Part shown: positions 31,982 to 56,690 of the stretch, piece after piece | Position numbering within the stretch: position 1 is the first letter of the stretch | Layout of the letters: each line of letters opens with the position of its first letter | Assembly: GCF_011578285.1 (NCBI RefSeq) | Contig: NZ_CP049916.1 | Coordinates: forward strand, 2,976,001 to 3,040,000 | DNA: 64,000 bases | Direction: 5' to 3' | Source of the DNA: Acinetobacter lanii | Lineage (GTDB): Bacteria; Pseudomonadota; Gammaproteobacteria; Pseudomonadales; Moraxellaceae | Position numbers and translations under genes: made by a program | Notes under the pieces: generated by a model | What the model saw: the letters and a program-made list of their open reading frames with translations, nothing else | Databases searched by the model: none | What the model was told of the DNA's origin: nothing

Positions 31982-32401
31982 TTATCGGCCATCCCAATTG
32001 GATGTAAAACTCAATTCACAAGCTGTTGTTGATGCAATCCAACATTTTCGACCCTCACTATCAAGTTTGACTACACCGCGTTTTGCTTGCAATGGCGTCG
32101 CTGTTAGAGTCCAACTTTGACCTGATGCATCTAGGTCAAGTGCAATTGTATATTTTGCTTTACCCGATAGTGGATAGATTTGTTGCAATGAGCCATTATC
32201 CAAACTTGCATCATTGAAGCTATGTTTCATCAATGCATAACGTTGTAAATTTTGTGCAATTTGCATCAGTTCAGTTTGTACATCTACACGCTCTGTTCGA
32301 ACTATATAGCTTTGGTAACTTGGATATGAGATAGCAGCAAGAACACCAATAATGGCAACCACGATCATCAATTCAATCAGCGTAAAAGCGTTTTCTTTCA
32401 T
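31982..32401 (-). CDS. pilE: Type IV pilin-like protein PilE (cluster 1, second copy)
   Basis: 139 residues, last gene of pilus cluster 1. The hydrophobic helix [19 protein letters not shown] with Glu5 is that of type IV prepilins, but the leader MKENA ends in Ala instead of the Gly that prepilin peptidase PilD prefers. Two C-terminal cysteines (GRKCW and TTACEL) should form the pilin disulfide loop, and the end FTSNWDGR matches the cluster-2 homologue. It is expected to be a minor pilin assembled by the inner-membrane pilus machine. Its start A overlaps the stop of the gene upstream. Confidence 0.88.
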
Positions 32402-32961
32402 TACCAGACTTCACTCAAATCATTGTCTCCACACTGTGCTTGTCCACTAATAACATCAGCGATTACACCTGATACTTTGCTCATACAACGTATATCTTGA
32501 CTGGTCAGACCCAAATCATAATTTTTGGGTTGTTTCGGCAAATCTTTCTCAGTCGTTCGTAATACCGTCATGCCCCAAGATAAGCCAGTAACGTTAGGAT
32601 TAGCTGTTGCGTAATCAGTATTGTCACCCCCCTGTTTTAAAGGTTGTTTGGTATCGAAATCAAAGAGTGATAATACAAATTTCGCATTTTCTGCTGTACT
32701 GCCGACCGGAATCAGCATTTGCCCTGTTTGCACGACATAACTGGGATATAAGTAACTTGGATCAAAGTTTTTATAACTAAAATTTTTGCCCTTAAAACGC
32801 TCTAACTCTGCTGCAATCCTTAAGGCTTCTTGCTTCGCAGTACTGAGATCTTTTCTCTCCATATAATTCATATAATTTGGAATTGCGATGGCTGCTAAAA
32901 TCGCAACCATAACTATAGTAACCATCAGTTCTACGAGCGTAAATCCTATATTTCTGTTCAT
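32401..32961 (-). CDS. pilE: Type IV pilin-like protein PilE (cluster 1, first copy)
   Basis: About 186 residues from ATG 32961 (leader MNRNIG, with AGGG upstream); the ATG at 32982 would overlap pilY1. The mature helix [19 protein letters not shown] has Glu5. The globular part is longer than its cluster-2 counterpart and ends with two cysteines (IRCMSK and AQCGDN). It acts as a minor pilin or pseudopilin in the pilus tip or priming complex. It directly follows pilY1 and overlaps the next pilin gene by one base. Confidence 0.88.
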
Positions 32962-32968
32962 AACAACC

Positions 32969-35900
32969 CTATTGAGATTCATACCAACGAAGCTGTTTTA
33001 AGCTGACTTTATTATTAAAAATCTGACACTGTGGCAAATTTTTATTTTCAGGTTTCATACAATCCGACCCAGTGGCATCATCCCGATTAACAACCAAGCC
33101 GACTGTATTGTTTGCATTATTATAGCCTTGACCAAAGCCGGTTCCTAAAATACCTGCACCTAGTTTTACTGAGTAAGGCTTAGTGATCGTTGAAGGATAA
33201 AAATCACACTTTCCAGATGGTAAACAGAATTGATAAAGATGAGAGTCGCCTGTTACACCAGCACCACATGATCCGCCAATACCTGCTCCATCCTTATCAA
33301 AAACATTGACGTAGAGCATATTATCGAGCGCGTATAATTCATTCATCCCCTTATAACGCCCGGCAATGTCAGAATAATGATATTTCCATCCTCCGTTGTA
33401 TTGACCGTTACTATTTTTACGAGAGATGCCTGTACTTAACACTAACGAGTCTAAAGTCACATTCTGTGTAATTAAAGTATTGCTATTAAGCAAATCAGCA
33501 CGGGTCACATCATTATCAAATACGACAAAAACACCGTCATTGGCACTATTGGCGTGATCAACCAATGGTGAACTACGATTACCTGAACTAAATGCGGCAA
33601 CAACAAAATAGTCTCCATCCTCTTTATGGACTGAAATACTTGGCATTTCATAAAAACGAGGACTAGTTCCAACATCTCGGTGCTGACTAAAAAGAAGCAC
33701 TACTCTTTTTGCAAAGTTTTTAGCATCTTGTTGGCTATTGTCTAAATCTACTCGAAATGCTTGACCACCCAAGTCACCGAAATACAAATGATCGACTAGA
33801 CCATCTGCATCTCGATCTATGGCATTGATTTGAGTGACTACACTATATTTTAAATCGTTGTGAAGAGTTTGTTGGTCTGCTCCTGTCGCAGCAGTCGAAC
33901 TTGCCCACCACAGTAATTCGCCATTTTCAGCATCGAACATATACACCCCATTGCCTTTTGAGGTATTTGGGTTATTCAGTGCTTGTTCATATGCAGTGTC
34001 ATAGCCACCTCCAACAAACATGACCAATTTTTTCTCACCTTTCCATTTAACATAAGCAAGAGTCGGTTTTGACCAACTTTGCCCCATTTGCTGTAAGGCT
34101 AAAGATGCATCTTGAGCATCCGGGTCGATATGAAATTTTAGACTCGGTTTTTCAATATCAGACAGGTCTAATGCGTAATAACTACGCCCCCCCATGCGTA
34201 AACCGCCGTAGACCCATTGTAGTCCTTTGACATTGAGACTATCACTATCATCGGTTTTTTTACGCTCTGCATCGTGCACGGTCAGCGTTCCATCAGCTTT
34301 TGAAACGTATTGAGTAAATGCAGTCCATGGCCCATCAATCCCATAAAATAAATGTTCCTTACCGCCATTGCTCAGATTTTCAGCGATAAATGCTTCCTTT
34401 TGCTTTTCCATCATTTCATGGGGAACAAAAGCAAAGACTTCCTCACCATGACCATTTAAAACATGCAAGACACCCTGAGTACTGCCAAACATTAAATAGT
34501 CTTTACGAGCATTCGTGCTTATCTCTCCATGAGCGTATTCAATTTTTCCTTCTTGGGTAAGCAACAATGGCGTAGAGTGCATCACACTACCTATTTGACG
34601 TAATTCACTTTTTCTCAATAAATCTTGCAGACTTAATGCGGTATCTTCGATATCAACTTTATAACCAAGCAGGTTTAACCAGTAGTTTTTTGCTGGATCA
34701 TTAGCATAGTCAGCCTGATCATTGACACCAAATAGACTCAATAAATTTACTTCTGCTAAGCTATTTTTTTCATTCACAACACCCGCAGCATCTATGACTC
34801 TATTGGTTAAAATTCTACGCTTTGAAGTTTGAGCTAAGCTGGTGCCCAATTTGAGTTGTTGTAGGGCGCCACCGCTCCATAGACCCTCTATATTTTGATT
34901 GATTGCTCCAGTTGAGGTGATTAAAGATGTAAATTTAATGTTGCCTTCACCATCTTTAGCTGTTATTCGACCTAATTCGCCATTATAAATATCGTATTTA
35001 TTTAAATTACCCACCCACAGTTGATATTTTTCTTGTGGCTTCGGTGTGAATGAAGAATAGTATCCATAGGGCTGTAGTTGAACAGGATTTAAACTATCTA
35101 CAGGAATAGAGGGAGACCCGGTTGCAACAGGATCAATCGTAACTTCGGTCTTTTTTACGAAATCAATGATACTTTTTTTAATATCTTCTGAATTTTCTGC
35201 ATAATAGAATCCGCCATCACCGTATTCAGAGCTTCCCCATAGACATGCATTTTTAGCATCTAGATTAGGCGCTGAATCACAATTAAAGGTGCCATCAGCA
35301 TTCTTTGACATACCTGCAAATGACGATCCAAAACCGACTACTGCAGTTTTGATATTCATATCCATTTGATTTTTTTGTGTATCATTGCTACTGGTTCGAT
35401 TACGCATTTTTTTTGCATATTCACCAATATATTCCCACCCCCCAGTCTCTCCAGCAAATAAACCTGATTGTAGGGTTGGGGACACCAATACTCCAGTTCC
35501 TGAAGGTTTACCTAAAAATTGATAATTGGTACCTAAAGTTTGATTCATAATGGTTTTAGCCATGTCATCTTTGGTGGAATTGGGTGCACCATCCGTTAAA
35601 AAGTAGATGCCATTACCATCACAAACATTTGTTGAGCCGCCAGCCCTATAGACTGCACCATTCTTAATATCGGTTGAGTTAGAGAAAGCAAATCCACCAA
35701 TTAAACTATCTATCGTTCCACTCACCAAAAATGGATTGGTTCGATAAGATACAATGCCAATTGTACCGCCAGCATATCCTGTCCAAACAGTGCCTACGAT
35801 TGGCTCAATATCTAAGGGTTCATTTGCCACTCTCATCCACCCCCCATAGCGCCAACCCAAAGGTAGTTTGCTGAAGGTCTCCCAACCTGACTCCATATTA

Positions 35901-37007: not shown

Positions 37008-37694
37008 CTAAGACACTAATTCTGGTTTTCCACCCACCACATAATCTGCATGTTGTGTGTTATATGGAATACTCAGATTCGAAAAGCATACTGATACTTC
37101 AGAAGATAATTTTTTAAAACATTGCTCTATTTCAGCTGTTGAAACATGTGCGAAACTAGGAAGTGTGGATATGACAGTCACACTGATATGATTCGATACC
37201 ACAGGCAAATTACTTTGACCAAGACTAGTACCTGAGGCAAAGTGTGAAAAAGGCACTGCGCTCTCTAAATTTTTCTTGATATACACTTGAGAAATAATCG
37301 CAGAGCGTCCAGTTGAAAATTGATTTGCCTTGCAAAACCCATCCAAGCCAATCTTAGAAATGTCTCCAGAATGAGAAATTGCACTGGCTTTACTCATGGA
37401 GAAAAAATTATTTTCAGAAGCCCGATAACAAAACACCAATTCATCTGTCGCATGATCCGCGGCATTAAAATAGCTGAACATGCCATCCTGTGCGAGTTGC
37501 CTTGAAATTTGATTTGGATCTTCGATATTAAATAGAGCTGCATTACTATTTTCTAAGAGTAAGATTTGAATCTGACTATTGGTGGCTAACCTTAATCCTA
37601 AAATCCCTGAGCGAACCGCCATTGTTCCAACTAACACGATGAGTAGAAGAATAATCAAGGTGACAATCAGTGTAGAACCTCTTTGTTCAATCAT
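37008..37694 (-). CDS. pilX: Minor pilin PilX (cluster 1)
   Basis: 228 residues. Leader MIEQRG then STLIVTLIILLLIVLVGTMA, a PilX_N-type helix. Position 5 is Val rather than Glu, as expected for this GspK-like component that caps the minor-pilin complex. The block GILGLRLATNSQIQILL continues the helix. It overlaps pilW by four bases (ATGA) and lies 25 bp before pilY1. Confidence 0.88.
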   Translation of the reverse strand: MIEQRGSTLIVTLIILLLIVLVGTMAVRSGILGLRLATNSQIQILLLENSNAALFNIEDPNQISRQLAQDGMFSYFNAADHATDELVFCYRASENNFFSMSKASAISHSGDISKIGLDGFCKANQFSTGRSAIISQVYIKKNLESAVPFSHFASGTSLGQSNLPVVSNHISVTVISTLPSFAHVSTAEIEQCFKKLSSEVSVCFSNLSIPYNTQHADYVVGGKPELVS

Positions 37695-38722
37695 GAGATT
37701 GCTCCCAATGTATTTCTTAACCCCACCGCCTGACTAATCACCTGTCTTAATTGAGAAACTGAAGTCTTCATTAAATCTAATTCAATCTCAGATCCAGCCA
37801 ATTGAAAAGAGACCTGCTTATTTAACTGCGCTTCTGGGGAGGCTAATGCAGAATGTGCTCTTGCTAGAAGACCGACTTCGATTGAAATCACGTTATAAAA
37901 TTCAGAAGAGTGCTTAATGCTGTCCGGCATCAGTTTTATATATTGATCAATGCTCATGTAGCTCAAGTTTTTATTGGGCGCTTGTACCCCAAGTTGAATA
38001 CGAAATGCATCAATGTCTCGCATCAATACTTGAGCATTTTCTCCCAAACCTTGAATCTGAGTATCATCATTGCTGTAGTAGCCATAATCACAATAAAGAG
38101 CATAACGTTTGTCCGTATTTTTTTGGATTTCAACCGTTGTTTGAGGCAGTGCCTGTAGAAAATAACGCTGCACAATAATCGGTTTTAAGGCTGATGATTG
38201 TGTATCTTCATTATTGGTTCTTTTAATTTCAAACTTAATTTCATTGCCTTCGCAGTTATAAATACCTGATTTGGTCACAATAGAACCTGCTTGACTAGCT
38301 TGCTCATCAGACGATTTGTCTAGCGTTTCCTCAACGCGATATTGCGGCATAAATTGGATAGTAATTTGGTCACTTTTGGACTGGGTTACATCTTCATCTT
38401 TGGCTTGTTTAGAGAGTAAATTGACATCTGTGCCACTTAAACGAGCAGGTAAATTATTTAAATTAAAAATAATACCAGAGCCAGTGTCTTTATTATTCAC
38501 TCTTTGTTCTGTCGGCACATTTAAGTTAGCATGCCTGAGATCATGGGTAAGTTGCGACAACCCAAAATTGGCATTTTGCTGCACCTCACCAACACCGATT
38601 TGCACCCCCATAGAGCGTTGTGCATTTAGAAATACGGCAGTCCCTGCTGCAACAATAATCAATCCCAAGACCATAGCGATCATGAGTTCAATCAAAGTAA
38701 ATCCAGACTGCGGTTTATTCAT
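37691..38722 (-). CDS. pilW: Minor pilin PilW (cluster 1)
   Basis: 343 residues. Leader MNKPQSG then [20 protein letters not shown] with Glu5. The body includes QQNANFGLSQLTHDLRHANL, typical of PilW. It should bind PilX, PilV and FimT in the tip complex beneath PilY1. It overlaps pilV by eight bases and pilX by four, so the block is translated as one operon. Cysteines at IYNCEGN and LYCDYG are matched in the cluster-2 copy. Confidence 0.9.
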   Translation of the reverse strand: MNKPQSGFTLIELMIAMVLGLIIVAAGTAVFLNAQRSMGVQIGVGEVQQNANFGLSQLTHDLRHANLNVPTEQRVNNKDTGSGIIFNLNNLPARLSGTDVNLLSKQAKDEDVTQSKSDQITIQFMPQYRVEETLDKSSDEQASQAGSIVTKSGIYNCEGNEIKFEIKRTNNEDTQSSALKPIIVQRYFLQALPQTTVEIQKNTDKRYALYCDYGYYSNDDTQIQGLGENAQVLMRDIDAFRIQLGVQAPNKNLSYMSIDQYIKLMPDSIKHSSEFYNVISIEVGLLARAHSALASPEAQLNKQVSFQLAGSEIELDLMKTSVSQLRQVISQAVGLRNTLGAIS

Positions 38723-39200
38723 AATTGTAAGTCTCTACAATAATACATTGTGCTTTAGGCGCATACGCCGTCCCCTTAGTACAATCACGATCAGACTCAT
38801 TATTTGTAGCCGTGGTAGTTCCCCAAGCAACATAAACACACTGACGTTTTAAAATCGCGCCTGGACAATCCAAAATCTTTATAGACATACCTAAGTCAAT
38901 TGCACGTCGATTGACTTGATCAAAATCATACGTCGCCATTTGCTCAGCATTACAAAATACATTCAAACAAGACTCGACCTGTTTTTGAGTTTTTCCATAA
39001 AATTTAAAACCATCCCGATTCATTCGCATACGTTCAGATAAATCATGCGCCAAATTGGTGGCCAAGACTATTTGACTTGCTTCTGCACTCGAGGAAATTG
39101 CTCGCATCTGAAGTGCAATAAAACCGATTACCCCTATTGCCAACAAAATCAAGGAAACCAAAACTTCAATCAAACCTACACCTTGTTGATATTTAGTCAT
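38715..39200 (-). CDS. pilV: Minor pilin PilV (cluster 1)
   Basis: 161 residues. Leader MTKYQQG then VGLIEVLVSLILLAIGVIGF. The segments ARDL-like AHDLSERMRMNRD and YVAWGTTTATNNE mark PilV, with cysteines in pairs (SCLNVFC; DCPGAILKRQC). It is part of the priming complex with FimT, PilW and PilX. It lies 10 bp after fimT. Confidence 0.9.
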   Translation of the reverse strand: MTKYQQGVGLIEVLVSLILLAIGVIGFIALQMRAISSSAEASQIVLATNLAHDLSERMRMNRDGFKFYGKTQKQVESCLNVFCNAEQMATYDFDQVNRRAIDLGMSIKILDCPGAILKRQCVYVAWGTTTATNNESDRDCTKGTAYAPKAQCIIVETYNYE

Positions 39201-39210
39201 AGTTCAATCC

Positions 39211-39642
39211 TCAACTGAATTCTGGGCATGAACTACGCGATCGATCGTAATCAATAGCCCCATTTTTATTCACCACAATGACTGCTTTGTAGGAGGTGTC
39301 ACTTTTATGTTGGATCACAAAACATTGTGAACTTTCAACTAAAGCACCGAACATATTGAAAGTGATTGTTTGAATAGGGATACTGTCCCACTCGGTATGT
39401 TTACCGAGTTGAGCTAAATGATGTATAGATTGCCCATTGAAACTAACTTGGTAGTTTTTCCTGAGCAGAATTGCTTCCGAACGGTATCCAATAAGGGATT
39501 CAACAATAGCTCTAGCATCGCTCGCAAGCTGCTGTTTTCTGATCAATTTGACCATAGAAGGGGTAACAATCGTGGTGAGTATGACGATAACACTAATCGT
39601 TACGATTAACTCTATTAGCGTAAAACCTTGAGCTCTATTCAT
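39211..39642 (-). CDS. fimT: FimT/GspH-family minor pilin (cluster 1)
   Basis: About 143 residues from ATG 39642 (MNRAQG then FTLIELIVTISVIVILTTI); the open frame reaches ATG 39660. It has the GspH-like body with VESLIGYRSEAILLRKNY and a late ITFNMFGALVESSQCF strand. It is the first gene of cluster 1, so the AT-rich gap 39661-39876, which ends at an IS, must contain or have contained its promoter. Type IV pilus assembly needs the other pil loci elsewhere in the genome. Confidence 0.87.
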   Translation of the reverse strand: MNRAQGFTLIELIVTISVIVILTTIVTPSMVKLIRKQQLASDARAIVESLIGYRSEAILLRKNYQVSFNGQSIHHLAQLGKHTEWDSIPIQTITFNMFGALVESSQCFVIQHKSDTSYKAVIVVNKNGAIDYDRSRSSCPEFS

Positions 39643-39876
39643 TAAAAAAAATATAATCAATAACCGGCATGCAATATATTCATGAAAAAATTAAAATAAA
39701 TAAAAAAACGATGAGTGGTAATATTTAAGGGTTAAAACAGAATAATCGCATAAAAAATAATCTCAATATTTTTATATCATTGATTAATCTTATAAGTAAA
39801 TATGCAAAAGCAATCAATAAACATACTCAACCACACTGGTTTATAAAATAAATAAATCAGAATATATTTAAAAAAT

Positions 39877-40759
39877 AGACCTCTTGCGAAAGTAAAAACT
39901 ATCCTCATATAAATGTCATGAGATATCAGAAATTAAACCATTTTTCAGATTCTGAATTCAAACGCTTGGTTGGCGTACCTCGGCAAGTTTTTACTGAAAT
40001 GGTCGAGGTGTTAGCAAAAGCAGAATCACTTAAAAAGAAATCAGGGCGTCCTCATACATTAGCGCTTGAGGATCAATTGTTGTTAACGCTCAATTACTTA
40101 AGAAACTACAACACTCAGCTAGAATTGGCGGCGCATTATCATATTGCTGAGAGTAACGTGAATCGAACCATTAAAAAGGTTGAGGATGCGTTGATGAAAT
40201 CAAGGCGTTTTACGCTTCCGAAACGATCTATCACCACAGCAGATGAACACTTTAATTGGGTTATTATTGATGCAACAGAATGTTCAATAGAACGTCCCCA
40301 AAAAAAATCAGAGTAAGTTTTACAGTGGTAAAAAGAAGAAACATACGCTCAAAGCGCAAGTGATCTATCATCCAAAGAGCAAACAAATCATAGGTCTAGA
40401 TCTATCGAGTGGTAGTCAACATGACATTAAATTGGCAAGAAAAACGATTGCAAAATTCAAGCATTGTGAATATGTGATTACTGATTTAGGGTATCATGGA
40501 CTAGAGGAGCGTGGATTTAAGCTATTGACTCCTATTAAGAAAAAGAAGAATTATGCCTTATCTGATATTGAGAAAAAGTACAATAAAATCATTGGAGAAA
40601 TACGAATTGTGATTGAACACATCAATCGTCAATTAAAAACATTTAGAATATTAAGTGAACGCTATCGAAATAGACGGAAAAGATTCGGTTTACGCATTAA
40701 CTTAATAGCTGCACTGGCAAACCGGATAAACTTGCAATAACGACTTTCGCAAGAGGTCT
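39877..40759 (+). mobile_element. IS5-family element (HTH_4/DDE_4 type), 883 bp
   Basis: Perfect 17-bp inverted repeats: AGACCTCTTGCGAAAGT (39877-39893) and its complement (40743-40759). It is flanked by an identical 11-base direct repeat ATTTAAAAAAT (39866-39876 and 40760-40770); the true duplication may be shorter because the region is AT-rich. One transposase is split over two phases. This is the outermost element of the island on the cluster-1 side. Confidence 0.9.
39918..40740 (+). CDS. IS5-family transposase in two phases
   Basis: The first part (39918-40316) has the N-terminal HTH domain (KSGRPHTLALEDQLLLTLNY) and the first catalytic Asp in WVIIDATE. The second part (to 40740) has YVITDLGYHG and the glutamate in IVIEHINRQLKTF. 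The phase changes by +1 at a run of eight A residues (about 40299-40306): removing one A restores ERPQKNQSKFYSGKKKKHT. The related fragment at 46961 changes phase in the same way at the same protein position, so programmed slippage is as likely as mutation. Confidence 0.82.
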
Positions 40760-40878
40760 ATTTAAAAAATATAAGCTTATTTTGATTATATTAAAAATAA
40801 ACTTTGATCAAATAACATGCTTGATGTATTTTTTTATACAGGGTGAACTATTTTAACTTAAGAAAAAAAATATAATTT

Positions 40879-40983
40879 AACCCGAATCGCGGATAAAAAA
40901 TTAACTTGCAAAATAAGAGGACTAGAGCCATCAGTTGAGTTACCACACAAAACTTAAAACTCTAATCCCGATGTTTAATAGTA
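40879..40983 (+). mobile_element. IS982-family left-end fragment
   Basis: Begins AACCCGAATCGCGGAT and follows the first about 105 bases of the IS982 at 41087 with few differences, including CCATCAGTTGAGTTACCACA and GATGTTTAATAGTA. It stops at a TA where an IS630-type end begins. It is a remnant of a second IS982 copy. Confidence 0.85.
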
Positions 40984-41086
40984 TAGCTAAATAAAAAACA
41001 TAAGCTACATCATTTTAAAGACGATATCTAAAACTTCCTGAAGGGTTTTATTATTCTGAGTAATCGTGTGTCTGAGTTCACTTTTT
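40984..41086 (-). mobile_element. IS630-family end fragment
   Basis: Starts TAGCTAAATAAAAAACATAA and resembles the first about 100 bases of the IS630 at 41762 (TAGCTAAGTATAAAATATAA, then AGCTACATCAT), but has diverged. The part coding the transposase C-terminus is cut by the start of the next IS982. Confidence 0.82.
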
Positions 41087-41782
41087 AACCTGAATCGCGG
41101 ATAAGAAATTAACTTGAAAAATAGAAGGGCTAGAGCCATCAGTTGAGTTACCACACAAAACTCACAACTCTAGTCCCGATGTTTAATAGTACCGAATTAT
41201 TCTGCTTAATTGATGATTTCTTTCTCAAATTTGAAGCAACCTATTGGAATTTTCTTAAGCAAAGTAATCGTTCCTTAAGAATCAGAACTGCTCATTTAAC
41301 CATTTCAGAAATCTGTTTTATCGCTATTTGGTATAAATGTTCTCATTTCAATAATTTCAAAGCATTTTTCATTTGGTTAAAAGAAGATAAAAACCATTTA
41401 TTTAAGTATTTGCCTTGCTATCAAAGGATGATTCATCTGATCAATATGCACCAATTGGCTCTACACGCTTTACATGTAGTGCTGATGAAAGACCAAGGTA
41501 CACAATATTTATGGATTGATTCAACGACTTTGCCAGTTTGTAAAAATCAACGTATTCAACGCCATAAATCTTTAGCTAAAATTGCATCTCGTGGTAAAAG
41601 TTCAATGGGCTGGTTTTATGGCTGTAAATTGCACATTGCAATGAACCAATTTGGGGAAATTGCTTGTTCTGCTTTATCCAGTGGACATGTTGCTGACATA
41701 AAAATGGTTGAGAGACTCGTTAAAGAGATGGAAGCAAAGTTATATGGAGATCGTGGCTATATAGCTAAGTATAAAATATAAG

Positions 41783-42301
41783 CTACATCATCTTAAATGC
41801 AATATCCAAAGCGTCGGGAAGTGTTTGATTGCTAAGGGCAACCATATGTCTGACTTTGCTTTTTAGGACAGACCATGCTCTCTCAATAGGATTTAGATCA
41901 GGACTATATGCCGGTAGATAAACAATTCTTATCTGATATCGTGCTGCCAAGTCATCAATTACTCGACCTTTATGAATGGATGTATTATCTAGAATCAGCA
42001 AATAACTCTTAGTCTGATCATCCTTTTGCTTTAAATCCTGCAACAAATATTCCAACCAACAGACAAAAATATTCCGATCACACGAACCGTGAAAAACTAA
42101 AGGTTGAGTAAACTTGAATGGTGCATTTGATCTGACCGCACTGATCATACTGAGTCTCGTGCCATGCCCACCTGACTTAAATGCATGACAACGTTGACCT
42201 TTTGGAGACCAACCGTATTCTGCGGTTTCATTGGTATTGATGCCTGATTCATCGATATAAAGAATGTGATCTTCACCATATTGCTGCTTCCACTGAGGCA
42301 A
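41783..42301 (-). CDS. IS630 transposase, catalytic part
   Basis: Carries the IS630/Tc1-mariner DDE triad: Asp in LYIDESGINTN, Asp in YLLILDNTSIHKG, and Glu in AYSPDLNPIERAWSVLKSK. From its frame the sequence continues upstream of ATG 42301 as KQACKLSRAVFEW, joining the N-terminal frame by a -1 shift. The DDE-type transposase moves the element by cut and paste into TA sites. Confidence 0.9.
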   Translation of the reverse strand: MPQWKQQYGEDHILYIDESGINTNETAEYGWSPKGQRCHAFKSGGHGTRLSMISAVRSNAPFKFTQPLVFHGSCDRNIFVCWLEYLLQDLKQKDDQTKSYLLILDNTSIHKGRVIDDLAARYQIRIVYLPAYSPDLNPIERAWSVLKSKVRHMVALSNQTLPDALDIAFKMM

Positions 42302-42324
42302 ACACCATTCAAATACAGCACGGC

Positions 42325-42702
42325 TTAACTTGCAGGCTTGTTTGTAGAGAAAACTCTTTTTTTACGCGTCCAACCCATCTTATTTAGAGCTTTTAAAATG
42401 ACATGATAGCCAACGCTATAACCGAATTTCTGTTCAAACAAAGGAATAAGATCTTTAGCTTGGGTAAATGGCGTTGTTTTTACAAATGCATCAAAAGCTT
42501 GCAGGTCCAGAATCTTTGAGGGACGTCCTACATTTGGAGACTTAGGTTGTTTGAGTTGACCAGTCTGCTGTTCGATCAGGATCCAATCATCGAGCGTGGT
42601 TCTGGCAATATTAAATATTTCGCACGTCTTCGATTTATGCTTTGACTCTTTATAAAACTGCATGGCTTTTTCGCGTAAATCGACAGAATATGTTTTTGGC
42701 AT
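42325..42702 (-). CDS. IS630 transposase, DNA-binding part
   Basis: 125 residues from ATG 42702 (MPKTYSVDLREKAMQFYKE), with HTH blocks SKTCEIFNIARTTLDDWI and NVGRPSKILD. The frame runs over CGT AAA AAA AGA; the A7G string (42357-42363 on the minus strand) is a classic -1 slippery site that leads into the catalytic frame. The last about 10 codons here are probably not used in the fusion protein. Confidence 0.88.
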   Translation of the reverse strand: MPKTYSVDLREKAMQFYKESKHKSKTCEIFNIARTTLDDWILIEQQTGQLKQPKSPNVGRPSKILDLQAFDAFVKTTPFTQAKDLIPLFEQKFGYSVGYHVILKALNKMGWTRKKRVFSTNKPAS

Positions 42703-43119
42703 GATCTTAAAGATTAGAGTTTTTTCTATTGTAGCTCATCTTAAGTTTTTAGCTATATTAGTCAAGAACTGAAGATTAGATTAAAAGAGCAAGGCATTGA
42801 TTTAATTACCTATCATCGAAAAAATATGCAGGCTATACAACTTTCTGAGTCAGATAAATATCACTTAAAACAGCGCAATAAGATAGAGACTTTATTCAGT
42901 TTATTGAAAGGTCAGTACAATTTAGTGACAAGCAAAGCACGTAGTGTTCATGGATTTCTAGGAGGGATTTACGCGTCCTTGTGTGCATATCAACTGATCC
43001 ATAAAAATAAGCCAACAATTCAAATTATGGAGTCATCGGCTTAAACAGGATTCGGGTTAAAATAAAAAATTTCCCTCTAAAACGATCAATGAAACATTCC
43101 ATGAATAGCCACCAAAATT

Positions 43120-45099: not shown

Positions 45100-46705
45100 A
45101 TGAAAATGCTGCCTGATTTAAGCCAACTCACCCATGAACAACTGCTGGAATTTACCCGGCAGTTGGCGATGCAGCATAAGTCTCTGGCACAATCAAATCA
45201 AGAATTAGAAAAATCAAACCAGCAATTGGATGCCAAAGTTCAGCATCTTTCTATTCTCAATCAAAAATACGAGCATGAACTGGCGCTGTTTAAAAATCAT
45301 AAATTCGGCAGTAAAAACGAACATCTTACCGCAAAACAAATCCATCTATGGGACGAAGCGGTCGAAGAAGATATCGCAGCGCGTTGATCTAGAATTAGAA
45401 CGATTAAATGCAGATAAAACCGATGCAGTGACACAGAAAGCCACAGTCAACAAACCTAAACGTCGACTGCTGCCAGATCATCTACACACCATCCGTATTG
45501 AGCATGAACCTGCATCAACCCAATGCAGTTGTGGCTGCCAGTTACGTCGTATCGGCGAAGATATCAGTGAAAAACTGCATTTCAGACCGGCACAGTTCTA
45601 CAAGGAACAGCATGTCCGTGGCAAATGGGTCTGTGATCAGTGCGACACTCTGACTCAGCAAGCGATGCCTGCCTATGTGATTGATAAAGGCATTGCTTCA
45701 CCTGAATTGCTCAGCCATGTGCTGGTATCGAAGTATGCCGATCATTTGCCGCTGTACCGTCAGCGCCTGATCTATCAGCGGGCGGGCATTGATCTGTCCA
45801 GATCTACTTTATCTGACTGGATTGGTCGCTGCGGTGTGGAACTGGAACCTCTGGCCAATGCCTTAAAACAGGTGGTGCTGCAACAGCGGGTGATCCATGC
45901 CGATGAAACGCCGGTCACCATCATGCGGATGGGTGATGATGAGAAAAAACCGAAGAAAGGTTATGTCTGGGCCTATGCCACTACACAGTACAATCCAGTT
46001 CAGGCAGTGATCTATGACTTTCAGGATAGTCGTTCAGGTCAGCATGCTGAAGCGTTCCTGAATGGCTGGCAGGGTCATCTGGTCTGTGATGATTACAGTG
46101 GTTATAAAGCACGCTTTAAATCAGGCCAGGTCATTGAGGTGGGCTGCATGGCACATGCACGTCGTAAATTCCATGAACTGTATGTGACCGGGAAAAGTCA
46201 GATCGCTGAACAGGCATTAGTGCTGATTCAGAAACTGTATGCCATAGAAGCAGAACTCAGGAAAAAGACCGATGGTACAGCAGAACATCGCCGCGAATAC
46301 CGGCAACAGCATAGCCAAACGGTGATGCAACAACTGTATGAATGGCTCAGCCAACATTATCTGGCGGTGCCATCGAGTTCTCCAACTGCCAAGGCGATCA
46401 ATTACAGCCTAAAACGTTGGCAGGCACTCTGCCGCTATCTGGATGATGGCAATTTGCCTATAGATAATAACTGGATTGAAAATCAGATGCGCCCCTGGGC
46501 GTTGGGACGTAAGAACTGGCTGTTTGCTGGCTCGCTGCGCAGCGGCCAACGAGCTGCCAATATCATGACTTTAATCCAGTCAGCAAAGCTGAATGGACTG
46601 GATCCGTATGCCTATTTAAGTGATGTGCTGAAAAGGCTGCCGACGCATAAAGTCACCCAAATAGAAGAATTACTGCCACACCGCTGGAAATCCGACCAAA
46701 ATTAA
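45100..46705 (+). pseudogene. tnpC: IS66 transposase TnpC, frameshifted
   Basis: The N-terminal part (from ATG 45100, a coiled coil of LAQSNQELEKSNQQLDAKV type, then KFGSKNEHLTAKQ) ends early at TGA 45385-45387. The frame one base later continues VDLELERLNADKT to 46705, with the zinc-binding block CSCGCQLRRIG, HADETPV (first Asp) and DDYSGYKARF (second Asp). One extra base near GCAGCGCGTTGAT explains the break. The joined protein would be about 535 residues, normal for TnpC. Confidence 0.88.
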
Positions 46706-46744
46706 AAAATAGGCATGGGATTCAGCGGACGCTTACCGTGCAGC

Positions 46745-46828
46745 AACTTCAGCCACACTATGACCTTTCTCAGTGAATTGTTTTACTGCTTCAATTTTGA
46801 ATTCTTCAGGATATCGTTTACTGCTCAT
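46745..46828 (-). pseudogene. IS3 OrfA, 5' part
   Basis: From ATG 46828 (GAGGTG ribosome-binding site upstream) it encodes MSSKRYPEEFKIEAVKQF and TEKGHSVAEV, 28 codons, then meets the IS66 duplication. It continues in frame at 44183. Confidence 0.9.
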
Positions 46829-46910
46829 AAGCACCTCGTTAATTAGCCATTTTATCTAACTAAAGGGTGTCTACGAAATCGGTGGCTATTCACCACTAAT
46901 GTTTAAATAG

Positions 46911-46960
46911 AGCCAAACTTAAAATTAGAACTACTTTGTTTTTAAATTAGAACAATTAAT
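46911..46960. repeat. About 50-bp divergent direct repeat, copy A
   Basis: AGCCAAACTTAAAATTAGAA followed by CTACTTTGTTTTTAAATTAG resembles 48926-48972 (AGCCAAACGCAAACTTAGAG, CTACTTTTTTTAAATTAAAA) at roughly four of five positions. It sits between the IS3 end and an IS5 fragment. Possibly a remnant of native spacer. Confidence 0.5.
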
Positions 46961-47454
46961 AGAGCTCTTTCATAAGTCATTTTTCACTCAGTTCCATGTT
47001 GTAGATTCCAGCAATTAAATTGAATCTTAAGCCTAGTCTTTTGCCTCGATTACGATATCGCTCAGCAAGGATTTTAAAGGTTTTCAAACTGCCAAATACA
47101 TGCTCAATTCCAATTCTTCTTTTATTGATTTCTTGATTGTAAATTTTTAGCTCGGGATCTAGTTTGCAGTGCTTCTTTGCTTTTAGAGGCAATAAGCTAT
47201 TCGGATATACTGCATAAATCCCTTGATAGCCTTTATCTGCAAGGATAAAGGCACCTGCCGGAATCTGATGCAAGTTTCGCTTGAAAAGTTCGAAATCATG
47301 TACAGCACCACGACTTGTGCATAAACTCAGAACTTGCTGAGTTCTATAATGAATGATGGCCTGTACTTTGAAAGTATGTGCCTTCTTCTTCCCACTATAG
47401 CTTTTCTTCTGTTTTTTTAGGTCTTTGTATTGGGATTTCTGTGGCATCTACGAT
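46961..47454 (-). mobile_element. Truncated IS5-family element
   Basis: The end AGAGCTCTTTCATAAGT (46961) resembles the AGACCTCTTGCGAAAGT repeat of the element at 39877. The other end is missing, cut at 47455 by an IS3. It is related to but clearly different from the 39877 copy. Confidence 0.85.
46977..47454 (-). pseudogene. IS5-family transposase, 5' truncated
   Basis: The coding remnant begins IVDATEIPIQRPKK (first catalytic Asp) in one phase and continues QKKSYSGKKKAHTFKVQ in the next phase after a run of seven A residues, then FILADKGYQGIYAVYP (second Asp) and GIEHVFGSLKTFKILAERY (Glu). The N-terminal HTH domain is lost. The phase change at the A run is at the same place as in the element at 39918. 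Confidence 0.85.
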
Positions 47455-47492
47455 TGAACCGTACCGGGTTTGTCGGAGACTTTTTATTTAAG

Positions 47493-48395
47493 TTAGGCCA
47501 CCTGACCTAACGGGTTAATCTTATCATAGTAGATTACTTCAAAATCAAAAGGTGATACATAACCCAGTGCACTATGTACACGTTCTTTATTGAACCAATC
47601 TACCCAATTTAGTGTCGCAAGTTGTACATCCGCTAAACCTTGCCAATCTGCTTTTAAATATTCAATCACCTCTGTTTTGTATAAGCCATTCATCGTTTCA
47701 GCCAAAGCATTATCGTATGAATCACCGGTCGTACCGACTGATGCTCGTAAATTTGCTGCTTCTAAACGATTGGTATAACGAATGGAAAGATATTGCACGC
47801 CTCTGTCACTATGATGAATCACGTTCTTTGGCATGCCTCGATCATGCAATGCTTGCTCCAGTGCATCGAGCACCATGTCTGTATTCATACGTGTTGATAC
47901 TTTCCATCCAACAATTGCTCGTGAGAACACATCAATAATAAAGGCGGTATAGACCCAGCCTGAATTTGTTTGAATATACGTGAAGTCAGCGACCCACAGC
48001 TGGTCAGGCTGATCAGCACTAAAATTGCGTTTCACCAAGTCATCTGCTCGTTTTTGATCATCCCGGCTACGGGTCGTTTGTTTATTCTTACCTCGCCAAA
48101 CACCTTGTATACCTAGCTTTTGCATCAATCGAGCAACTGTACAGCGCGCAATAATATAGCCTTCACGTTTCAGTTTTTGCCAAACTTTACGTACACCATA
48201 TCGACCTGAACTTTCCTTCCAAATTCGTTTAATTTGTTCAGCATGATGCAAGTCATGTAAATCTCGTTTCGCTCGATGTTCTGGATTGTCCGCGAGGTCT
48301 AAAGTTCGGTAATAGGTTGAAGGTGCGATAGGTAAAATTCTACAAATCGCCTCGACTCCGTACAGCTCTTTATTATTATGGATAAAATCCACCAT
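47493..48395 (-). CDS. IS3-family transposase OrfB
   Basis: 300 residues, intact. The HTH_21 region includes SSGRYGVRKVWQKLKREG, and the rve integrase core has Asp in LWVADFTYIQ, Asp in HHSDRGVQY and Glu in NALAETMNGLYKTEV. The start shares its A with the OrfA stop (TAATG), so it can be made by reinitiation or as a frameshift fusion. Confidence 0.93.
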   Translation of the reverse strand: MVDFIHNNKELYGVEAICRILPIAPSTYYRTLDLADNPEHRAKRDLHDLHHAEQIKRIWKESSGRYGVRKVWQKLKREGYIIARCTVARLMQKLGIQGVWRGKNKQTTRSRDDQKRADDLVKRNFSADQPDQLWVADFTYIQTNSGWVYTAFIIDVFSRAIVGWKVSTRMNTDMVLDALEQALHDRGMPKNVIHHSDRGVQYLSIRYTNRLEAANLRASVGTTGDSYDNALAETMNGLYKTEVIEYLKADWQGLADVQLATLNWVDWFNKERVHSALGYVSPFDFEVIYYDKINPLGQVA

Positions 48396-48712
48396 TATTT
48401 GTGTGGGCGGTCGAGCTCCGCCTGGGCGAAAAAAGCGGCTGCTTTGCGTAGAATTTCATTGGCTCGTTGCAGTTCTTTATTTTCGCGTTCAAGTTGTTTA
48501 ATGCGTTCTTGGTCTGAAAGCTGCTGTACTTTGATTGGATTCTGTTGATTCAAATACTTCTGATGCCAGGAACGTAGTGTTTCAGGAGTACAGCCAATCT
48601 TAGGTGCAATTGCTGTGATTGCAGCCCAAGTAGAAGGATAATCTTTTTCAGATTCAATCAATAATTGAACCGCTCTTTCTCTGATTTCAGGGGTATATTT
48701 TGGTTTTGTCAT
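48395..48712 (-). CDS. IS3-family transposase OrfA
   Basis: 105 residues: an HTH_Tnp_1 domain (TPEIRERAVQLL, CTPETLRSWHQKYL) followed by a leucine-zipper region (QERIKQLERENKELQRA). It binds the element ends and multimerises. It is distinct from the OrfA of the IS3 at 43102. Confidence 0.92.
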   Translation of the reverse strand: MTKPKYTPEIRERAVQLLIESEKDYPSTWAAITAIAPKIGCTPETLRSWHQKYLNQQNPIKVQQLSDQERIKQLERENKELQRANEILRKAAAFFAQAELDRPHK

Positions 48713-48760
48713 TGGGACATTCTCTCAAGAAAGTTGGTCTCCGACAAACCCGGTACGGTT

Positions 48761-48853
48761 CATGTTGAAAATATCAATAAAATGAATAAGAAGTAGATTT
48801 TACACTGATCGAATTATGCTTACACCATCATTCTTTGAAATGAGAACACGCCC
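48761..48853 (-). mobile_element. Right-end remnant of the IS427-like element
   Basis: 93 bases matching 15650-15742 with two differences, ending AAATGAGAACACGCCC followed by TA, in the same orientation. The transposase part is missing, cut by the IS3 at 48762 just before the OrfA start codon. Confidence 0.93.
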
Positions 48854-49108: not shown

Positions 49109-49567
49109 TCATTTCCCATCCCAGTTCGATGTGGCTGAAAGTGTGCAAGTCGTTTGAGCCTTAACCCAACATTTTTCGCCCTTATTATTTAATTTCAATA
49201 CACCATTTCCCGCCTGAATCGTATTGGTCATCGGTATTGCCGTTAGAGTCCAACTATTTTGTGTTACATCAGACAATGTCACGCTGTATAGCGAATCTCC
49301 ACTAGCAGGAATTTGAGTGGAATGACCAACATCTGATAACTCTATAGGAACCCGTGTTCCACCTAAATTTTTTAAAAAACTAAAATTAGCAATTTTATAA
49401 CGTTGTAGTGTGCCTGAGAGCTCAACAAGCTCCGTTTGAGCTTCTACCCTTTTGGTTTTAACCACATATTGTTGATATGAGGGATAAGCAATCGCCGCCA
49501 AAATACCAATTACAGCCACCACAATCATCAATTCAATCAATGTAAATCCTTTTATTATTTTTACCAT
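49109..49567 (-). CDS. pilE: Type IV pilin-like protein PilE (cluster 2, second copy)
   Basis: 152 residues. Normal prepilin leader MVKIIKG then [20 protein letters not shown] with Glu5. The C-terminal cysteines (GEKCWVK and TTCTLS) and the end ATSNWDGK match the cluster-1 homologue, from which it differs at about half of the positions. It is the last gene of cluster 2 and overlaps its neighbour by seven bases. Minor pilin or pseudopilin. Confidence 0.9.
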
Positions 49568-50025
49568 TGCTCAGCCCCAGCACAATCTAATGCAATTGTT
49601 GTTCCTTTCTTTTTACATTTTAAATCTTTGCTATTCATTACATAACTGTGTAATTGTGGGTCAGTTGCTACTGCTCTCATCACCCAACTGTGTCCTGTTG
49701 CAGTCGAATCTTTCAAGGAAACGGCGTTATTGTCACCATCATAGACGGATATCTCATATTTTATTTCCGTACCCGTTGCGCCTTTAGGCAATACAGTTTG
49801 ATCGGTATTAATACTAAAGCCCAAATAGTTAAAGTTTCTTGACTTATGACGCTCGAGATTTGTCGCAATATCTTGCATCATTTGTCTTGCTGTGGCTTCG
49901 CTGTTCCTACGGATATAGGTTTGATAGCTCGGAATTGCAATCGCAGCTAAAATTGCAAGAATAACGACCACAACCATTAACTCAATCAGCGTAAAGCCTT
50001 TAGAAAATTCATTGTTATTTTTCAT
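49561..50025 (-). CDS. pilE: Type IV pilin-like protein PilE (cluster 2, first copy)
   Basis: 154 residues. Leader [10 protein letters not shown] then [20 protein letters not shown] with Glu5. The globular domain is shorter than in the cluster-1 counterpart and ends with two cysteines (LKCKKK and LDCAGAEQW). It follows pilY1 by nine bases. Same expected role in the tip or priming complex. Confidence 0.9.
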
Positions 50026-53910: not shown

Positions 53911-53921
53911 ATTCTTCCCCA

Positions 53922-54686
53922 TTAAGAAAACTCTTGAGTAATGGTGTATTCAGTGACATGTGTTGTAAAAGGAACGTTCAGTTCTGTAAGGCATTGGTTC
54001 ACATTTTTTCTTGTAACGGATGAGGCTGAAACCGTAGTCCCCTGAGGAATGCTCACTTCACTCATTCTTTCTTGCAAACAGGTATTCAGTTTTGTTCGAT
54101 CACCACTGTACAAACTCGGGATCAAAGAAACAGCAAAAATTTTTACGCGTTTTGCTTCTTCGACTTTACTTTGTTTTGGATCTGAACCTCGTTGTCGATC
54201 ACTAAAAGGTTCATTACGACCGGATGTAGAAAATTTCACAGAAACTTGGGTCATGACTACTTTACGCATACTGGTAAAGAAATTTGATCCAGTATTATTT
54301 GCATCACAATATCCATCTTTACCAATAGAAGCATTGGTTGGTGCTTGCTTACCCGGTTCCCACTCAATTAAAGAGGCTTTGCCTAATTTAAAGAATTCCT
54401 TTTGATCCCCTCTAAAACAAAAAACTAATTCTTTATCAATATCATGGTCATTATTAATATAACCAAACATACCACTCGTGCTTAAACTCTGTACAAAATT
54501 TTCTGTATTTTCTACATTGAAAAAAGTAGCATCTGAGCTTTGATTGAGTAGCTGTTGGGCTTGACTGCTGGTTGCAATATTGAGCACCATTGAACTTTGT
54601 CTCATTGCCAATGTTCCAATCACCGTTAGAATCAACAGTACGAATAACACCACAATTAAGGTTGCGCCTTTCTGTTTAAACATCAT
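53922..54686 (-). CDS. pilX: Minor pilin PilX (cluster 2)
   Basis: 254 residues. Leader MMFKQKG then ATLIVVLFVLLILTVIGTLA, position 5 Val, PilX_N type. MRQSSMVLNIATSSQAQQLL follows. Two C-terminal cysteines (LNTCLQER and VNQCLTEL) may form a disulfide. It overlaps pilW by four bases and lies 11 bp before the preferred pilY1 start. Confidence 0.9.
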   Translation of the reverse strand: MMFKQKGATLIVVLFVLLILTVIGTLAMRQSSMVLNIATSSQAQQLLNQSSDATFFNVENTENFVQSLSTSGMFGYINNDHDIDKELVFCFRGDQKEFFKLGKASLIEWEPGKQAPTNASIGKDGYCDANNTGSNFFTSMRKVVMTQVSVKFSTSGRNEPFSDRQRGSDPKQSKVEEAKRVKIFAVSLIPSLYSGDRTKLNTCLQERMSEVSIPQGTTVSASSVTRKNVNQCLTELNVPFTTHVTEYTITQEFS

Positions 54687-55756
54687 TTTCCGCGCTCCCC
54701 AATTGCATTTCTTAAAGCAACATTTTGTGTGATAACACGTCTTATATATTTTGTTGTGACTTCTGGGTCTGTTTTTATGACGACATTTTGATCTAGAACT
54801 TTGAAATTTTGGTCATTTTTGATCACCTGCTCTCGACCTACAGTATCCAATGACCGAGCAAGGATCCCCAGTTGAACCGCAATGATTCTCGGTCGAGGAC
54901 TGGCCAATTTCATATATTCGTCTACAGAGATATACTGACGTGTATTGTCATGATGTTGAATACTTAACAGAAAATGAAAATGATCCACACGACTCATAAT
55001 CACTTCACCAGCATCCCCATAATTATTAATGGCTGTTGGCTCGCCAGATTTTGAGTAGTAGCCCGCATCACATGCCAATGCCAGAGCATCATTAGGCTCA
55101 TTAGATTGTTTATTACTGGTTCTTAAAAAATAGCGTTGAACTACAACTTGTTCACCAAAATCACCTTCGTCTCGTTTAAGTAAAGGGAAATTTAAGCTAT
55201 TGCCTTCACAATCAAATCCACCAATCAACTCATCATCGTTCTGATTTGCAGTGCCTTTATCATCTAGTTGATATTGTGGTAAATATTGAATCACCAATTG
55301 ATCACTTAACACATCAGTTGAACTCGAGGCATCTTTAACATTCGATTTACCTGTCCATTCAGGAGCACTCCCTTGCTCAGCTGCACCATGACTTCTAGAA
55401 AGCAAATTGACTGAAGCCGTTGCTCCTGTAATGGTTTGATATAAATTACTTAAAGGTGTTGAAATCTCATCCTTAACATCCATCGTGGCATTTTCAGAAG
55501 AGGTTAAAACAATGCCACCATATGCTGTTTCATCATTAATCACTGATTTTTGCGTATTTAAGTTCGCCAATCGAATATCTTTAGTGATGTAGTTCAAACC
55601 AAAGTTAGCGTTATCCTGTAAGTTGGCAAGACCTTGTTGCATTGAATAGCTTTTTTGCCCCGTCATCAGCATTAATATCGCTGCAGCCGAAACCAATAAA
55701 CCTAATGCTAAGGCAAGCATCAACTCAATTAAGGTAAATCCAGCATTATGTTTCAT
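54683..55756 (-). CDS. pilW: Minor pilin PilW (cluster 2)
   Basis: About 357 residues from ATG 55756 (MKHNAG then FTLIELMLALALGLLVSAAA), preferred over ATG 55783 because the short leader is normal and a GGAGG site lies ten bases upstream. QDNANFGLNYITKDIRLANL matches cluster-1 PilW. The cysteines GGFDCEGN and ALACDAGYY are conserved between the copies. It begins two bases after the pilV stop. Confidence 0.9.
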   Translation of the reverse strand: MKHNAGFTLIELMLALALGLLVSAAAILMLMTGQKSYSMQQGLANLQDNANFGLNYITKDIRLANLNTQKSVINDETAYGGIVLTSSENATMDVKDEISTPLSNLYQTITGATASVNLLSRSHGAAEQGSAPEWTGKSNVKDASSSTDVLSDQLVIQYLPQYQLDDKGTANQNDDELIGGFDCEGNSLNFPLLKRDEGDFGEQVVVQRYFLRTSNKQSNEPNDALALACDAGYYSKSGEPTAINNYGDAGEVIMSRVDHFHFLLSIQHHDNTRQYISVDEYMKLASPRPRIIAVQLGILARSLDTVGREQVIKNDQNFKVLDQNVVIKTDPEVTTKYIRRVITQNVALRNAIGERGK

Positions 55757-55758
55757 CC

Positions 55759-56253
55759 TCAATATGCCTCCATAATCAGGCATGTTGAATTATTATTGTA
55801 AGCATTATCATGTGTACAATCGCCAGTGCCTTCGCCATTGGTTGCACTGGTATCCCCCCAAGCCACATAGATACATTGTAAATCGTTGGTGTTATTTGGG
55901 CATTTCATGATGTTCATAGACATCCCCAAGGCTTGCGCCTTAGTCACCACTTGTGCCACATCGAAGTCAGCCATAGCTGTTTGATTGCATTTTGCTGAGT
56001 CACAATCGGTTTCAGAACGAGCTTGGCTTTGAGGGTCAGCCAATTGTGTTTTATAGGTATTAAAAGCGGTCCGATTGACGCGTATTCTTTCTGCTAAGTC
56101 TCGTGCTAAAGACACTGCCTCGACTCTTGAAGCTCCTTCTTCAGTGGCATCTAAGGCTTTATATTGCAAAGCAACATATCCCAATACCGCTATAGCCAAC
56201 AGCAATAAGGCAACCAGAACTTCAACTAAACCTACCCCTCTTTGATCTAGCAT
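55759..56253 (-). CDS. pilV: Minor pilin PilV (cluster 2)
   Basis: 164 residues. Leader MLDQRG then VGLVEVLVALLLLAIAVLGY. LARDLAERIRVNRTAF and YVAWGDTSATNGE mirror cluster-1 PilV, as do the paired cysteines (DCDSAKC; KCPNNTNDLQC). It overlaps fimT by seven bases. Component of the minor-pilin priming complex. Confidence 0.92.
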   Translation of the reverse strand: MLDQRGVGLVEVLVALLLLAIAVLGYVALQYKALDATEEGASRVEAVSLARDLAERIRVNRTAFNTYKTQLADPQSQARSETDCDSAKCNQTAMADFDVAQVVTKAQALGMSMNIMKCPNNTNDLQCIYVAWGDTSATNGEGTGDCTHDNAYNNNSTCLIMEAY

Positions 56254-56690
56254 GAAGCGTTCTCCTTAATCGCATCGACTCCCCCTAAAACACTGACCGT
56301 TAATACTTTTTTTAAGGCGTTGTCTGATTTATGAGTAATAGCAATACAACCATTTGTTGGACGTGTCTTTAAACGCCCCAACATATCGAATTGAATACTA
56401 CTCGGTGACTTTATTTCAGCCTTTTTGGCATCCCAAAAAAAATGGGTTGTTGTTGTCTCATCGTTATCTGATTTATTGAAATTCAATGTGACGTCTTTTT
56501 TTAAAATAATCGCTTGTGTTCTTGCCTCGGCCATAAGTGCGAGTACATCTTTAGTTTCATGATTAAACTGAATTTTTGAGATTTGACTATTAAAATTGGG
56601 CATTGCGATGACTGAAATAATAGCCAAGATACTGATCGTGACCATCAGTTCAATCAGTGTAAAACCCCGATTTATTGAATTCATCTTCAT
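56247..56690 (-). CDS. fimT: FimT/GspH-family minor pilin (cluster 2)
   Basis: 147 residues. Leader MKMNSINRG then [20 protein letters not shown] with Glu5; ATG 56684 is an alternative start. The GspH-type body includes VLALMAEARTQAIILKKDV and SIQFDMLGRLKTR, with two cysteines (TNGCIAIT and ENASC). It heads cluster 2, so the promoter lies in the AT-rich gap upstream. Confidence 0.9.
   Translation of the reverse strand: MKMNSINRGFTLIELMVTISILAIISVIAMPNFNSQISKIQFNHETKDVLALMAEARTQAIILKKDVTLNFNKSDNDETTTTHFFWDAKKAEIKSPSSIQFDMLGRLKTRPTNGCIAITHKSDNALKKVLTVSVLGGVDAIKENASC

Follow-up and report, generated by a model that had tools for sequence, protein, structure and literature searches.

Two Pilus-Tip Operons of Probably Separate Ancestry between ispH and rpsP in Acinetobacter lanii

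Introduction

Why would a bacterium keep two complete gene sets for the tip of a type IV pilus at a single chromosomal site? The question is raised by a 64,000-nucleotide stretch of Acinetobacter lanii DNA (referred to here as the window; all coordinates are window positions), in which two full seven-gene operons, fimU-pilV-pilW-pilX-pilY1-pilE-pilE, lie between ispH and rpsP on the minus strand. The ispH-side operon is called cluster A and the rpsP-side operon cluster B. Both have the same gene order and all 14 reading frames are open, which bears out a preliminary description of the window that had placed two complete same-strand sets here and had put the divergence of the gene pairs at about half identity or less. 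The measured protein identities between A and B are 34% for fimU, 48% for pilV, 37% for pilW, 34% for pilX, 39% for pilY1, 39% for the first pilE and 55% for the second pilE. The window lies in one 3,408,300-base contig (the chromosome) of a genome assembled in two contigs, and a search of that genome for the PilY1 family gave three matches in two open frames, both of them in the window. An assembly artefact is therefore unlikely, as had been thought.

The explanation that best accounts for the locus, and that is probably correct, is that the ispH-rpsP interval would be a hot spot for the exchange of whole tip cassettes between Acinetobacter species, and that in the window genome a second, unrelated cassette would have been added instead of swapped. 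Clusters A and B would be two horizontally sourced alleles of an exchanged cassette, stacked at one site; this statement is judged probable jointly with the rest of the explanation. Two alternative tip complexes, each of minor pilins and a PilY1 adhesin, would be served by a single type IVa pilus machine. The subunits would assemble in cognate sets, and both operons would be expressed in this organism, which may result in pili of two tip specificities or in tips used conditionally. Transfer may have occurred via natural transformation, and insertion sequence (IS) elements would have entered the inter-operon spacer later.

Ancestry of the Two Operons

Surveyed genomes are given G numbers and loci L numbers, with the suffixes _A, _B and _S for a first, second and single cluster. 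Cluster extraction yielded 108 clusters (29 first, 29 second and 50 single, the last including an extra G020 region and G076), and the relatives of a cluster were judged gene by gene, from the best hit among the clusters that contain the gene (85-108 of them).

Two adjacent operons of the same order and strand could have arisen by tandem duplication in place, with later divergence of the copies. The PilY1 trees argue against this. In them cluster A groups with G099_A, whereas cluster B groups first with G133_S and next with G012_S, and the support is strong. When the A and B PilY1 proteins are forced to be sisters in a careful tree built from 25 hand-chosen rows, 813 log-likelihood units are lost, and the approximately unbiased (AU) test under LG+G4 rejects the constraint (p = 2.8e-85). 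The two PilY1 proteins are of separate ancestry and thus not the products of duplication in place. For the other six genes the sister relation was judged by best hit only, and the best hits of the two sets fall in different species. In-place duplication is extremely improbable; of the earlier proposal of an old or horizontally mixed duplication, the horizontal mixing stands and the duplication in place does not.

As regards movement of the seven genes as a block, all seven cluster A genes have their best hit in G099_A, from another two-cluster species. For cluster B, four of the seven (fimU, pilV, pilW and pilX) have their best hit in the single cluster G133_S, and the PilY1 protein is a mosaic whose halves differ in kin: residues 1-600 resemble G020_B (50-75% per 100 residues) and the second half is closer to G063_S. 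The preliminary description had asked whether one cluster groups with another species; in trees and best hits, A groups with G099_A and B mainly with single-cluster species. In a large protein collection, A. baumannii and A. lactucae proteins at 61% are among the relatives of the cluster B PilY1 (best 7998 candidates scored).

The history of the cassette departs from the species tree, as would be the case for an exchangeable cassette. Among 80 genomes the nearest rpoB is that of G086 (91%), the rpoB sister, whose single cluster carries an unrelated PilY1. Across 40 single-cluster genomes PilY1 does not follow rpoB (Mantel rho -0.01, p = 0.53). The values for pilV, fimU and the first pilE are not significant, and those for pilW (0.16, p = 0.04) and pilX (0.12, p = 0.04) are weakly positive. 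Remnants of the ispH and rpsP flanks were sought in the junctions between A and B, and only short matches of 15-60 bases (best 43 bits) were found.

Occurrence in the Genus

It had been stated that known Acinetobacter chromosomes carry one such cluster, and this needs correction. The ispH-trmD interval was measured in 175 genomes, one genome per species. The two genes are close together on one contig ("linked") in 161 of these; in the remaining 14 they are on separate contigs, distant or missing. Two clusters are present at the locus in 27 of the 161 linked species genomes, or about one in six. The interval spans 6.0-10.5 kb in 132 linked genomes, 16.3-18.0 kb in 26 and 26.2 kb in the window genome. 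All 26 long-interval loci and the window have two PilY1 frames each; in the one-cluster class, frames were inspected for part of the genomes only. Two intervals are odd, those of G144 (14.5 kb, two PilY1) and G076 (21 kb, one PilY1 and extra pilE genes). In the unlinked set, G087 has two clusters next to trmD, and its contig ends within the first of them. Two clusters are found, for example, in A. haemolyticus CIP 64.3 (L064), Acinetobacter sp. NIPH 2699 (L065), NIPH 298 (L066) and A. sichuanensis (L057, first cluster cut), and one cluster in A. baylyi (including DSM 14961, L063), A. soli, A. portensis, A. ihumii, A. gerneri and A. lwoffii S246-3.

Two clusters are a recurring state. On an rpoB tree of the 80 genomes, 26 of them labelled two-cluster (G020 and G087 are absent and G144 is scored as one), the two-cluster label needs 9 changes, 7 of which are forced by well-supported branches. 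Of the 26, 22 fall in one 29-species clade that includes a genome matched, presumably correctly, to A. haemolyticus; the other 7 species of the clade have one cluster. The possibility that two clusters are the norm of the genus, which the preliminary description had left to a survey, is not borne out, yet they are the state of 22 of the 29 sampled species in this clade.

Some loci depart from both arrangements. G020 has a third tip cluster beyond trmD (L045 1931-9248, reverse strand), giving three PilY1 sets within about 27 kb. G064 has a single cluster and a lone pilE pair before rpsP (L079 8833-9687) that is not of the kind of its relative G119; the remnant-like pair suggests that sets are also lost. 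In G105 a frame of about 1 kb has been inserted into the pilW of the single cluster and splits it (L081 1249-3459). The clusters are incomplete in two of the shortest intervals: G102 (L077) has fimU, a 150-codon PilY1 piece and the pilE pair, and G147 (L078) has pilV, a pilW broken in two, pilX and a PilY1 of reduced length.

Conserved and Shuffled Positions

In the 22 two-cluster genomes of the clade, the second PilY1 proteins form one lineage together with the single cluster G089_S. The median identity is 61-77% for second-cluster proteins versus 35-51% for first-cluster proteins. First-cluster proteins (22 species, six genes) do not agree with rpoB (Mantel rho between -0.24 and 0.00). For the second cluster there is agreement for pilW (0.43), pilV (0.46), fimU (0.44) and the first pilE (0.63, 21 species), all with p < 0.01; PilY1 (0.20, p = 0.052) and pilX (0.14, p = 0.14) are below significance, so the second position is not purely vertical. 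Judged from the sequences, the rpsP-side cassette of this clade appears as one conserved lineage and the ispH-side cassette as shuffled. Outside the clade (the window genome, G099, G119, G151, G087, G020 and partly G144) the second PilY1 proteins come from various parts of the tree.

The second clusters of G037 (L048) and G132 (L074) are alike in pilW (87%) and the first pilE (95%) but not in pilX (63%) and pilY1 (44%). The middle of the operon seems to have been replaced.

A wider reading is offered tentatively, and is perhaps a little less likely to be right than wrong. The ispH-rpsP interval may be a stacking site, where a second tip cassette can be added and both kept under selection. The clade around A. 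haemolyticus would have settled into two slots, one by rpsP that is conserved and one by ispH that is freely exchanged, and a pilus for DNA uptake would import replacements of, or additions to, its own tip. Fixed and shuffled slots raise a further question: why is one cassette shielded from exchange? If both tips are used, a single cell could present two tip adhesins, which matters for adhesion, for phage receptors and for the uptake of DNA in a genus with hospital pathogens among its members. One clade with 22 two-cluster and 7 one-cluster sampled species is a natural contrast, and the role of the second tip can be tested by deletion.

In none of the 22 two-cluster genomes of the clade was a second pilE called behind the second pilY1, and in G032 neither pilE was called. 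It may be that one set serves DNA uptake and the other twitching or adhesion. Such a division of labour is a sharper form of the explanation given above and overlaps with it. The paralogue sets of Xylella fastidiosa (pilE/V/W/X, fimT, pilY1-1 to -3) are described as acting mostly in opposite directions on twitching and competence (PMC9956873), and the second cluster of the 22 species, without its second pilE, evolves unlike the first. However, both window sets hold the full seven genes, so gene content separates no tasks, and a division of labour here is considered somewhat unlikely.

Gene Content and the Pilus Machine

Both sets have the seven-gene order of the Acinetobacter fimU-comF tip operon and, like it, lie between ispH and rpsP. 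The Pfam family N_methyl matches every pilin except the two PilX proteins. Those match PilX_N (PF14341) below the cut-off and were named also by operon position. PilV has a Tt1218-like Pfam match and, in both clusters, an NCBIfam match (TIGR02523) above the cut-off; PF16074 matches both PilW proteins. ComP_DUS (PF16732) is found in the four pilE products, in one of them below the cut-off. The first gene is named solely from its prepilin motif and position. It had been called fimT, and fimU is the better name because the A. baylyi operon is described as beginning with fimU, with fimT unlinked (PMC5542475).

Both PilY1 proteins match the PF05567 propeller above the cut-off. The Pseudomonas PilY1 propeller 3HX6 is the sole solved-structure match at E 0.01 and is weak for both. 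Near its N-terminus each protein has a DxSxS motif, which is followed by TDGxPN and by a loop that resembles a calcium site (Table 1).

How many pilus machines could these tips serve? The window genome has one PilQ and three PilT-family genes above the cut-off, and a second secretin-like frame scores far below the PilQ cut-off. Two sets of minor pilins and PilY1 are thus found with one PilQ machine, in which respect the genome resembles Myxococcus. By analogy, two alternative tip complexes are the likely function and the best functional guess.

Both borders of the locus are intact, as first described; the downstream genes beside trmD are taken to be rpsP, rimM and rplS. Next to rplS there is a second tandem pair, two adjacent similar genes of 333 and 354 amino acids (27381-29630, plus strand), which we take to be lipase-like.

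Table 1. Position of the two tip operons, their borders and the IS elements between them (window coordinates).
Feature	Position	Strand	Basis or remark
Cluster A	56690-49109	-	ispH side
Cluster A fimU, minor pilin	56247..56690	-	N_methyl
Cluster A pilV	55759..56253	-	TIGR02523 above cut-off
Cluster A pilW (comB)	54683..55783	-	PF16074
Cluster A pilX	53922..54686	-	PF14341 below cut-off and position; pilin start without Glu5, read from sequence
Cluster A pilY1 (comC), putative tip adhesin, 1295 aa	50035..53922	-	PF05567; DVSTS at residue 63, TDGEPN at 377, calcium-site-like DRNSDGLTD at 984
Cluster A first pilE (comE)	49561..50025	-	PF16732
Cluster A second pilE (comF)	49109..49567	-	PF16732
Cluster B	39642-31982	-	rpsP side
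Cluster B fimU	39211..39642	-	N_methyl; Shine-Dalgarno match not found
Cluster B pilV	38715..39200	-	TIGR02523 above cut-off
Cluster B pilW	37691..38722	-	PF16074
Cluster B pilX	37008..37694	-	PF14341 below cut-off and position
Cluster B pilY1, 1337 aa	32969..36982	-	PF05567; DTSGS at residue 50, TDGAPN at 463, calcium-site-like DRDADGLVD at 1056
Cluster B first pilE	32401..32982	-	N_methyl; PF16732 below cut-off
Cluster B second pilE	31982..32401	-	PF16732
ispH, upstream border	57135..58085	-	
rpsP-rimM-trmD-rplS, downstream border	29703..31838	-	
IS island, A-B junction	39866..48762	.	8.9 kb
IS5-family element	39877..40759	+	Transposase in two frames, 17-base terminal inverted repeats; no further genome copy among the matches listed
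IS982-family element	41080..43059	+	Interrupted by an IS630-family element at 41759-42757
IS66-type element	44184..46736	+	Name presumed from the order of open reading frames; at least 2 further full copies at 100%; nested in an IS3-family element
IS5-family fragment	46958..47454	-	
IS3-family element	47455..48762	-	26-base perfect inverted repeats; at least 6 further copies at 100%, one at 91%

The IS Island

The preliminary description had correctly noted about 9 kb of IS elements between the operons. Could the second set have been carried in by flanking IS elements as a composite transposon? Nine kilobases of IS between the sets would fit such an origin. However, the outer ends lack matching IS elements, since IS reading frames are absent at both the ispH-A and the B-rpsP borders. 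The operons also abut in other two-cluster genomes, with gaps of 224-357 bases in the 25 genomes with a called second fimU (24 of the 26, and G087) and of 303 bases in G020, measured to a frame with the sequence character of fimU. In G119 the second cluster has no intact fimU frame; 1218 bases without an IS-sized frame precede pilV (L072 7802-9020), and pilV through the second pilE are open. None of the other 26 two-cluster species genomes has an IS island between the operons.

Several of the elements look young. Copies were sought in the window genome (40 of 72 candidates scored), where the IS630 element has at least 13 near-full-length copies at 96-99% identity. The IS66-type element is nested in an IS3-family element with inverted repeats at 43102-43127 and 46867-46892; for this interrupted IS3 and for the IS5 next to cluster B, a further full copy is absent among the matches listed. 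Since several island elements have copies elsewhere at 96-100%, the island looks late and not the cause of the two-cluster state, and such recent elements are unlikely makers of two sets that share 34-55% identity. A composite transposon is very improbable. The island looks like a secondary, incidental arrival in the spacer, on the strength of near-identical copies for several elements and not for IS5.

An ALIL pseudoknot lies inside the complete IS3 (48321-48437, minus strand) and fits an active element. A hairpin followed by a T run was seen by eye after the first operon in the six junctions examined; such a site was not found directly after cluster A in the window.

Expression Signals and Selection

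Cluster B could be a silent or dying passenger, stacked by chance, with its leader lost to IS insertion and deletion to come as it apparently has in relatives. The IS5 element starts about 235 bases before the cluster B fimU, where a Shine-Dalgarno match and an upstream-motif match are absent. Decay is also seen at related loci, as in the fimU-less second cluster of G119, the lone pilE pair of G064 (L079), the split pilW of G105 (L081) and the incomplete clusters L077 and L078. However, all seven open reading frames of cluster B are open across 7.7 kb, and both PilY1 proteins retain the DxSxS and calcium-site-like motifs. The ratio of nonsynonymous to synonymous substitution rates (dN/dS) is well below 1 for sampled genes of both clusters in six pairs picked from the other two-cluster species. 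The values are 0.01-0.31 for both A and B (Nei-Gojobori; pilW, pilX, pilY1 and first pilE), with G087_A lacking pilW and pilX at its contig end and several dS values near or above 1. A passenger is considered unlikely.

A motif picked by eye is found, with up to two mismatches, before 52 of 73 cluster A and single-cluster fimU genes (about 5 expected from shuffles) and before 6 of 23 second clusters (about 2 expected). The motif is a lead only, because it was picked from these same, partly homologous sequences. The spacer between ispH and fimU in the window (56690-57135) is about 300 bases longer than usual, with 468 bases to the prepilin glycine; the spacers of 72 of the 73 others measured are 112-238 bases long, and that of L080 is 1724. 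Most of the long spacer has no convincing match, and the roughly 223 bases before the cluster B fimU have no convincing relative among the spacers compared (best 31 bits).

Several observations weigh against the explanation of two exchanged cassettes that are both in use. Three of the seven cluster B genes have best hits away from the common source (pilY1 in G012_S, first pilE in G054_S and second pilE in G058_S). The nearest PilY1 proteins among the 7998 candidates are at 70% for B and 68% for A, and close relatives of either were not found among them. Synonymous sites are saturated between the window clusters and their nearest relatives; with dS saturated and relatives distant, the dN/dS evidence bears on the window pair indirectly. 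The 5' end of the rpsP-side operon looks weak in sequence and is the weak point. A Shine-Dalgarno match is absent before the cluster B fimU, as before 25 of the 100 fimU genes scored (this one included), and the eye-picked motif of most ispH-side spacers is undetectable there, the best match having 3 mismatches and lying within the IS.

Other candidate signals were rejected. Gibbs sampling before second-cluster fimU genes recovered mainly a ribosome-binding region common to one clade, and sigma-70 scans were uninformative, giving fewer sites than shuffles (20 versus 26.5 and 16 versus 27.3). Homopolymer tracts were considered as switches, and the G7 in both window PilY1 genes is no longer than in many relatives. 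Elsewhere, a run of ten G inside the PilY1 gene of G054 (L099, near 5521) and runs of eight G directly upstream of fimU in G133 (L105) and G043 (L110) are possible phase-variable tracts.

Comparison with Known Systems

It is already known that a genome can have several tip clusters and that cassettes are exchanged at this locus, and the precedents from M. xanthus, Xylella and A. baumannii lead the window locus to be read as two cassettes of the exchanged kind, stacked. Two stacked Acinetobacter clusters, their recurrence in about one of six surveyed species and the pattern of a conserved and a shuffled slot were not found among the titles and abstract openings listed from the open-licence literature (supplements not covered).

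The single fimU-comF operon of A. baylyi ADP1 has the same gene order as here, but one copy. In the work available on it, comC, pilV, comB and pilX are required for transformation, and comB, pilX, comE and comF for twitching (PMC5542475). Myxococcus xanthus is described as having three clusters that each encode four minor pilins and a PilY1, and either cluster 1 or cluster 3 is enough by itself for piliation and motility (PMC7541494). Like the window genome it combines several FimU-PilV-PilW-PilX-PilY1 sets with one machine, however, its sets are separate clusters, and those here are stacked at one exchange site with the pilE pair included (PMC7541494, PMC13190605). Xylella likewise has paralogous tip operons within one genome, but in two different genome regions, and whole-allele exchange at one locus is not described in the text consulted (PMC9956873).

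Another close likeness is to A. baumannii, where fimU-pilV-comB-pilX-comC-comE-comF has been called an "evolutionary cassette" with the variants Var1-1, Var1-2 and Var2, and where the seven-gene block is reported to have been exchanged whole between lineages at least twice, flanks excluded (PMC10374093). A second cluster goes unmentioned in the text consulted, and "duplicat" and "paralog" each occur 0 times in the main text of that paper (supplement not covered). The gene set is the same as in the window and so, by gene order, is the operon. In A. baumannii, as described there, one cassette replaces another, but in the window two unrelated cassettes adjoin (PMC10374093).

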